From Ferrovibrio sp. (GTDB lineage: Bacteria > Pseudomonadota > Alphaproteobacteria > Ferrovibrionales > Ferrovibrionaceae), in NCBI RefSeq assembly GCF_019636075.1, contig NZ_JAHBYG010000014.1, positions 1 to 64,000 on the forward strand: DNA of 64,000 nucleotides, in the 5' to 3' direction. The notes under the pieces are model-generated. The model ran no database searches, was not told the origin of the DNA, and was given only the letters and a program-made list of their open reading frames with translations. Shown here in pieces: positions 33,982 through 35,322 of the stretch (positions are counted from its first letter, which is position 1; each line of letters opens with the position of its first letter). Position numbers and translations under genes: made by a program.

Positions 33982-34695
33982 ATGTCCACCGCCAGTATCG
34001 ATGCCGCCCAACAATGCCGCGCTGTGGCCCGTGCCTGCCGCACGGCAACGCTGGCGACCAATATGGCCGGCTCGCCTTATGCTTCGCTGGTGCTGGCGGC
34101 CTTCGATCTGGATGCCACGCCGTTGCTGCTGATCTCGCAATTGGCCGAGCATACGAAAAACCTGCTGGCCGATCCGCGCGTGTCGCTACTTTGCGACGGC
34201 ACGGCGGGTTATGCCGAACCACTGACCGGGCCGCGCGCCACCCTGCTCGGCCGCGCGGTGCGCACGGATGAGCCGCGCCATCGCGAACGCTTCCTGGCCC
34301 GGCATCCGGGTGCTGCGATGTATGCCGATTTCAAGGATTTCGCTTTCTACACGCTGGCAATCGAGCGTGCCCATATCGTGGCCGGCTTCGGCCGCATCCA
34401 TTGGTGCGAGGATTACCGGCTGGCGGGCGACATGCAGGCGCTGGCCGAGGCGGAAGCCAGCATCATCGCGCATATGAACAGCGACCATGCCGATGCCGTG
34501 GCATTGTATGCCAGCAAGCTGCTGGGCCGTGATGGCGAAGGCTGGCAGCTTTGCGGCATCGACCCGGAAGGCGCGGATCTGATTCACCCTGAGGGCCAGC
34601 TTGCCCGCCTGCCCTTCGATAAGACGGTCTGGGATGCGGAAGGCGCGCGGGTGGAACTGGTGCGCCTGGTAAAGCGTGCCCGGCAGGGGAGTTAG
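33982..34695 (+). CDS. HugZ-type haem-utilisation / PNPOx-like protein with DUF2470
   Basis: A 237-residue protein with an N-terminal FMN-binding-like split barrel (TATLATNMAGSPYASLVL, LLLISQLAEHTKNLLADPRVSLL) and a C-terminal DUF2470 domain (MNSDHADAVALYASKLLG, GIDPEGADLI). HugZ proteins of this build degrade haem, while other members are of unknown function. GGAGA lies 11 bases before the ATG. It is the only haem-related gene here and sits beside a strong Fur box, which supports an iron role without proving haem oxygenase activity. Confidence 0.8.
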   Translation: MSTASIDAAQQCRAVARACRTATLATNMAGSPYASLVLAAFDLDATPLLLISQLAEHTKNLLADPRVSLLCDGTAGYAEPLTGPRATLLGRAVRTDEPRHRERFLARHPGAAMYADFKDFAFYTLAIERAHIVAGFGRIHWCEDYRLAGDMQALAEAEASIIAHMNSDHADAVALYASKLLGRDGEGWQLCGIDPEGADLIHPEGQLARLPFDKTVWDAEGARVELVRLVKRARQGS

Positions 34696-34715: not shown

Positions 34716-34802
34716 AAAAAAATGCCGGGGCGGTGTCGCCCCACAACACCGCCCCGGACCCCGTCGTCGCAACCAGCAGTGTGACGACGTTTCTCTGTGC
34801 TG
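34716..34802 (-). ncRNA. Candidate Fur-regulated small RNA (RyhB-like)
   Basis: Between hugZ and the cytochrome gene the minus strand has a promoter-like TTGTGT-N17-TAAGAT overlapping a Fur box, and about 90 bp downstream a strong hairpin plus T7. No reading frame of note lies between. The predicted RNA of about 87 nt would contain a CGTCGTC/GACGACG stem and the terminator. This size and layout match Fur-repressed sRNAs such as RyhB, PrrF, NrrF and ArrF. The upstream cytochrome gene has its own terminator, so this second minus-strand terminator needs its own transcript. Start and end are predicted only. Confidence 0.5.
34725..34757 (-). terminator. Intrinsic terminator (minus strand) before the hugZ 3' end
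   Basis: CCGGGGCGGTGT (34725-34736) pairs over 12 bp with 34746-34757 around a 9-nt loop. On the minus strand it is followed by CA and seven T (34722-34716). On the plus strand no T-tract follows, so it serves minus-strand transcription. Confidence 0.75.
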
Positions 34803-34815
34803 GCTCCGATCTTAT

Positions 34816-34830
34816 TGAGAATGATTTTCA
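34816..34830. promoter_or_regulatory. Fur box
   Basis: TGAGAATGATTTTCA matches the 7-1-7 Fur consensus TGATAAT-N-ATTATCA at 12 of 14 arm positions. A second weaker inverted repeat, GAGAA-AGA-TTCTC, is at 34846-34858. The box lies inside the spacer of a candidate minus-strand promoter and no protein gene starts near it on either strand, apart from hugZ ending 120 bp away. Confidence 0.65.
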
Positions 34831-34866
34831 AACACAAGTGCAATCGAGAAAGATTCTCAAAAAAAA

Positions 34867-34899
34867 TTGGCCGCCTGATAGTTTTGCCCAGGCGGCCAA
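34867..34899 (-). terminator. Intrinsic terminator of the cytochrome c gene
   Basis: TTGGCCGCCTG (34867-34877) pairs over 11 bp with CAGGCGGCCAA (34889-34899). Read on the minus strand it comes 24 bp after the stop of the cytochrome gene and runs directly into eight T (34866-34859). It is a textbook terminator for the soxY-soxZ-cytochrome transcript. Confidence 0.88.
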
Positions 34900-34923: not shown

Positions 34924-35322
34924 TTACTTCTTTTTGCCATCCGGGGTGTATTGCGCCAGGAAGGCGGTGAGGTTGGCGATCTCGGTCTCGTTCTTGATAC
35001 CGGGGAATACCATCTTGGTATTCGGAATCACGCCTCTGGGATCCTTGATGTAATTGGCGAAGCTTTCCGGGCTCCAGGCAATGCCGGAATTCTTGTTGGC
35101 GGCGGAATAGGCATAGCCCGGCACTTCGCCGGCCTTGCGGCTGAACAGCCCATTGAGATGCGGACCGGTGACATTCTTGGCACCCTCGCCGATCTGATGG
35201 CAGGCACGGCATTTGTTGAAGGATTTCTGCCCGGCTTCGACATCCTGCGCGGCGGCAAGGCCCGGCAGGGCGACGGCAAACAGTGCAAGGCTGGCACAAG
35301 CGGCAACGAAACGGATTTTCAT
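34924..35322 (-). CDS. Periplasmic class I cytochrome c (c2/c550 type)
   Basis: Small soluble electron carrier of 132 residues. A cleavable signal (MKIRFVAACASLALFAVALPGLAAA) precedes a haem-binding CRACH at about 38-42. The axial Met is in NTKMVFPGIK, and GPHLNGLFSRKAG is the class I loop. AGGAA precedes the ATG at 35320-35322. It is downstream of soxY and soxZ on the same strand and is a likely electron acceptor for their chemistry, although an independent respiratory role is equally possible. It has its own strong terminator. Confidence 0.92.
   Translation of the reverse strand: MKIRFVAACASLALFAVALPGLAAAQDVEAGQKSFNKCRACHQIGEGAKNVTGPHLNGLFSRKAGEVPGYAYSAANKNSGIAWSPESFANYIKDPRGVIPNTKMVFPGIKNETEIANLTAFLAQYTPDGKKK

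Follow-up and report, generated by a model that had tools for sequence, protein, structure and literature searches.

In many cases, Fur acts on iron uptake as a direct repressor and its 'activation' of iron-using genes runs through a small RNA; Fur-controlled small RNAs are well known in other bacteria. The preliminary description of the locus studied here held that such RNAs were little described in its group, and this agreed with the literature searched, in which, with most subscription papers lying outside its scope, no other Fur-controlled sRNA was established for the Alphaproteobacteria. A study of the iron response of Caulobacter allowed for 'an unidentified iron-responsive sRNA' and found sodB to be down 2.2-fold in a fur mutant, though not with iron (PMC3751524). 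The absence of such an sRNA from the Caulobacter Fur regulon has been called intriguing (PMC11005374). In the CC0682-sRNA1-CC0681-sRNA2 region of Caulobacter, Fe-Fur-repressed RNAs were proposed, speculatively, as candidate iron-sparing RNAs, and Northern analysis showed a long transcript only (PMC3751524). RusT of Caulobacter crescentus is a 118-nt RNA composed of stem-loops plus a terminator; it is induced by iron starvation and is controlled by NtrYX (PMC11005374).

We analysed a stretch of 64,000 nucleotides from Ferrovibrio sp., referred to below as the window. Covariance models (R1, R2 and R3) identified a small RNA with a predicted length of about 87 nt on the minus strand at 34716 to 34803, the start being inferred from the spacing of the -10 hexamer and the end being placed in the T-run. 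Homologues were detected in two forms, type 1 with a U-tract terminator and type 2 without one. The RNA resembles RyhB, PrrF, NrrF and HrrF in having a Fur box in its own promoter, a length of about 90 nt, an intergenic gene, an intrinsic terminator in type 1 and a possible sodB target in type-2 species. It differs from them in its compact two-hairpin fold, its closing helix and its G-rich loop 2, and in being found in one alphaproteobacterial genus only. The RyhB/PrrF/NrrF-type layout of the preliminary description was recovered, with a Fur box in the promoter, a length of about 87 nt and a terminator. The likeness to RusT lies in the alphaproteobacterial host, the stem-loops plus terminator and the use by RusT of a conserved loop for pairing with its targets. 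RusT is located at the lolA-xth locus, whereas the neighbourhood of the present RNA is different, and the two were set apart by neighbourhood and by the published description. The CC0682-sRNA1-CC0681-sRNA2 region is likewise alphaproteobacterial and holds Fur-regulated candidate iron-sparing RNAs, but no stand-alone promoter-terminator unit has been described there. A search of the window with all 4227 Rfam families, including the known Fur-controlled sRNAs, yielded no match at the gathering thresholds, and the use of an E-value threshold yielded sub-threshold matches only, none of them real. The sRNA would thus be a functional look-alike of the RyhB class and not a sequence relative. Its best explanation, which we regard as probable, is a Fur-repressed, trans-acting iron-starvation sRNA with RyhB-like logic.

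The promoter of this sRNA lies on the minus strand and consists of a -35 hexamer, TTGTGT (34832 to 34837), which aligns with TTGCTT or TTGTAA in the eight other homologues, and a -10 hexamer, TAAGAT (34809 to 34814), which aligns with TATTAT or TATACT in homologues. The 17-bp spacer houses a Fur box, TGAAAATCATTCTCA (34816 to 34830), that scored 12/14, the score being the number of matches over the 14 arm positions of TGATAAT-N-ATTATCA. All elements of this arrangement, TTGTGT-N17-TAAGAT with a 12/14 box in the spacer, had been reported before and were present in the sequence. A consensus promoter scan did not pick up the promoter, which was recognised because it is conserved among the homologues. 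In the 64-kb scan, this was the only box in the window with a score of at least 12/14; in first-order random sequence with the dinucleotide make-up of the window, such boxes arise by chance at 3 per 2 Mb, or about 0.1 per 64 kb. As the flanking genes in the window converge on the interval, the sRNA is the only gene that this box can serve. A second and weaker Fur-like box, TGAGAATCTTTCTCG (34845 to 34859, minus strand; 10/14), is located upstream of the -35 hexamer, between it and the terminator of the cytochrome c gene. No counterpart of this second box was seen at the same place in relatives on inspection by eye, and it is apparently confined to the window genome.

The strict palindrome TGNNAATNATTNNCA occurred at 4 sites in the 4.0-Mb genome, one of them being the sRNA promoter box. 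Another, at G000:C15:15025-15039 (L176), was a strong Fur-like palindrome, TGCAAATAATTATCA, upstream of an ECF sigma factor gene, which FecI models matched below the cut-off, and the remaining two sites were within or at the start of coding sequence. A strong Fur-family gene, with a score of about 124-130 bits, was detected in 9 of the 10 genomes of the genus. The Fur-family gene of the window organism scored 130 bits, and its best NCBIfam model was the ferric uptake regulator, below the equivalog cut-off. Weaker Fur-family paralogues, present in most genomes of the genus, look like Irr-like and Zur-like proteins. The promoter box would be bound by this Fur.

Two hairpins were found in the predicted transcript. 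Hairpin 1 (34789 to 34762), which was absent from the preliminary description, has a covarying stem and presents the loop 1 motif CUGCUGGU (34772 to 34779), a candidate pairing seed that was identical in nine of nine homologues. Hairpin 2 (34757 to 34725) also has a covarying stem, and its loop 2 motif, UGGGGC (34738 to 34743), was found in 8/9 homologues, with CGGGGC in G002. This second hairpin, previously described as a hairpin with a T7 tract after the promoter, was found to be a strong intrinsic terminator, with 15 pairs counted, and is followed on the minus strand by CATTTTTTT. The T7 tract of the terminator (34716 to 34722) can also form the 3' side of a closing helix with 5' AGAGAA. 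Upstream of the sRNA, and a neighbour only, is a cytochrome c gene (34924 to 35322, minus strand; Pfam Cytochrom_C) that has cytochrome c-550 CycA as its closest NCBIfam model, below the cut-off. It has its own separate terminator hairpin at 34867 to 34899 with a T-run after it, the two together spanning about 34899 to 34860 on the same strand; the second minus-strand terminator therefore implies a separate transcript, in agreement with the earlier proposal. The claim that no reading frame lies between promoter and terminator held in part: ORFs called mechanically span the interval, but none of them resembles a gene, and a coding role was excluded by indels between homologues that break the frame. 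As judged from sequence only, the type-1 element is a short stand-alone non-coding unit with an intrinsic terminator. Overall, the locus very probably encodes a small, folded non-coding RNA under Fur control that is induced by iron scarcity.

The preliminary description had named a lack of the box and hairpin in related genomes as grounds for refuting its proposal; the comparison was made, and its outcome supported the proposal. Nine of the 10 genomes of the genus kept the Fur-box promoter and the covarying two-hairpin RNA, in the neighbourhood of a HugZ-like gene, and in all nine a Fur-like box scoring 9-12/14 was situated at the same place between -35 and -10. The tenth genome, in which the sRNA was not found, is 72% complete and is also missing the HugZ-like gene. 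A blastn search with the sRNA DNA clearly found three genomes of the genus, in which promoter, box and terminator were all kept, and the type-2 form surfaced only with covariance models, in the same neighbourhood of other members of the genus. Type 1 was represented by four genomes, including that of the window, and type 2 by five, at L060:1463-1551, L061:13364-13451, L062:3561-3648, L063:7583-7671 and L064:6284-6371. Model R1 was built from the four type-1 sequences, and R2 was built from the five type-2 sequences only, the window sequence being excluded. R1 found the type-2 RNAs (28 bits, E 1e-6), and the window RNA was the best match of R2 in its genome (35.2 bits, E 2.2e-5). As each model found members of the other type, types 1 and 2 are homologous. 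Furthermore, the sRNA and its promoter form a conserved island in diverged flanks; for example, G003 and G004 were 97% identical over the RNA and 80% over the promoter, versus 12% upstream and 53% downstream.

No recognisable U-tract or intrinsic terminator was found at the five type-2 loci. The type-2 RNAs of G001 and G006 have a 5' hairpin, CGCACCCCGGUGCG, followed by GUUUUU just past the predicted transcription start, which resembles a tiny attenuator. Beyond the genus, the sRNA was detected neither among 18 genomes of the order (one family) nor in a class-wide sample of 385 genomes, a search in which strict filters were applied and few candidates were scored per genome, such that weak distant homologues could escape. 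Low-scoring covariance matches (L155 and L169-L172 among them) were inspected and rejected; these had no such promoter or terminator and lay in coding-like sequence.

The fold shared by the homologues consists of two hairpins within a closing helix, in which the stems vary and the loops CUGCUGGU and UGGGGC are essentially fixed. Across the nine homologues, all from one genus, 17 of 28 pairs were changed on both sides and 95.2% of pair cells were standard pairs. The covariation score, obtained with an alignment fitted to the type-2 structure, was 0.624; shuffled controls gave 0.277 and slid controls no more than 0.2. Folding energies of the 83-86-nt type-1 RNAs were 4 to 4.5 s.d. below those of shuffles, with a z-score of -4.3 for the 86-nt window RNA. 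In type 2, the closing helix GGUCG/CGACC encloses both hairpins, and type 1 has the U-tract in place of the 3' strand. The evidence for a closing helix in type 1 is weaker because U pairs easily and because the structure guided the alignment. When its complete predicted 5' end is included, the leader AGCCAGCA of the window RNA can pair with loop 1, so two folds would compete in this RNA, and a loop-loop kiss of UGCU with GGCA or GGCG is possible. Computation thus showed that the promoter with its box and the covarying RNA are conserved and that a Fur gene is present.

A HugZ-like gene (33982 to 34695, plus strand; PNPOx + DUF2470) converges with the sRNA in the window. The name hugZ given to it earlier was supported by this architecture but not by the score, 32.6 bits versus a 240-bit HugZ equivalog cut-off; as the gene falls so far below this cut-off, its heme oxygenase activity is uncertain. 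The adjacency reported for the two genes was seen in the window, but in the other genomes the converging HugZ-like gene is about 1-5 kb from the sRNA, the space between being mostly metNIQ. The position 'next to hugZ' is an accident of the window genome, and a functional link between the sRNA and hugZ was therefore not supported. The same comparison bears on whether the hairpins instead serve to terminate the converging HugZ-like gene or to control it in antisense, with an incidental Fur box. The window RNA does lie between two converging genes, and read-through from hugZ would be antisense to it; however, the relatives keep RNA and promoter at this distance from the gene, and hairpin 2 read on the plus strand has no T-tract after it. 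Such a role was rejected by synteny and is, in our estimate, highly improbable.

In the eight other genomes, one or two small ORFs lie downstream of the sRNA on the same strand, and in most of them metN-metI-metQ does as well. The metNIQ block is missing from the window, where the sRNA sits beside the HugZ-like gene. This gene order, together with the lack of a clear terminator in type 2, could indicate a 5' leader or attenuator under Fur control that serves the small-ORF/metNIQ operon, the window having lost the operon and kept the leader. However, in type-2 genomes a diverged stretch of ~60 bp is followed by a conserved promoter-like sequence, TTGACtt-N-GAATAT, that belongs to the downstream operon itself. 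In type-1 genomes that have the operon, a strong terminator is still present after the RNA, and the window has retained the RNA but not the operon. We therefore consider a leader role to be quite unlikely.

Several further features were observed in this neighbourhood. Downstream of the type-2 RNA, a conserved block, TTTTATTTGCATAACT, which is a possible operator, lies upstream of the promoter-like TTGACtt...GAATATAG and before the small-ORF/metNIQ operon (alignment A4 columns about 300-375); no SAM riboswitch was detected at this block. The small proteins that precede metNIQ in the genus (MSEAYLIEA...RERGGFRFFAA; ...PDWHGGGDLLALSFLPFDR; L061:12476-12983, minus strand, with equivalents in L057-L064) had no Pfam match, and their two sequences appear as a single reading frame in G003, G004 and G007. 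A cobalamin riboswitch (105 bits) was found at L064:1058-1326, in the same region of G005. In G003, the sequence immediately downstream of the HugZ-like gene (L057:6866-6990, minus strand) gave a sub-threshold match to the alphaproteobacterial sRNA ar14 (30 bits versus a gathering threshold of 58.8).

Potential targets were examined by comparing loop 1 with the sodB and sdhC leaders, both genes being classical iron-sparing targets. In G005 and G006, loop 1 and its flank, UCACUC-UGCUGGUCGU, pair with the sodB leader ACGACCAGCA and the SD sequence GGAGUGA, and pairing of this quality was reached at only 2 of 830 other gene starts and by only 1 of 5000 shuffled loops. The pairing was imperfect in G001 and G002 (29 and 17 of 830, respectively) and was not convincing in G008, in the type-1 relatives or in the window, where the sodB leader does not pair with loop 1 (rank 190/193). 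No signal was obtained for the sdhC leader, and perfect complements of loop 1 near start codons (ATG) in the window genome included no iron gene. As two genes and two loops were tested and the type-2 genomes are related, sodB is a lead that applies to part of the genus, and its role as a target in type-2 species is only suggested.

The absence of a convincing target in the window genome would also be compatible with a Fur-controlled RNA that binds a protein or another sRNA, sequestering it through the two fixed loops, and does not pair with mRNA. Two hairpins in a closing helix and invariant loops are likewise expected of a protein-binding or sponge RNA. However, a pairing seed would be expected to show conserved loops just as well, as RusT does (PMC11005374), and the type-2 loop pairs with the sodB SD sequence. 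Sequestration was judged unlikely, and base pairing is the likely mechanism of the predicted sRNA.

For the Fur-repressed, trans-acting sRNA, we infer Fur binding, expression and base pairing as the mode of action. With enough iron, Fe-Fur on the box between -35 and -10 would block transcription of the sRNA. When iron is short, Fur would leave the promoter and an sRNA of about 87 nt would be made, in which the two folded hairpins would present the near-fixed loop motifs in single-stranded form. At least loop 1 would most likely pair, close to the ribosome-binding site, with mRNAs that encode dispensable iron-using proteins. This pairing would stop translation of these proteins and spare iron, as RyhB does.

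A conserved RNA with a Fur promoter, a defined fold and a testable loop provides a concrete candidate for the sRNA sought in Alphaproteobacteria. We propose tentatively, with slightly less than even confidence, that this may be the first RNA family placed directly in the alphaproteobacterial Fur regulon and the missing 'negative arm' of Fur, with an origin independent of RyhB, PrrF and NrrF and a convergence on sodB in part of the genus. If true, the sRNA would supply the 'negative arm' of Fur postulated by the Caulobacter workers and would be a further case of the same regulatory logic arising independently.
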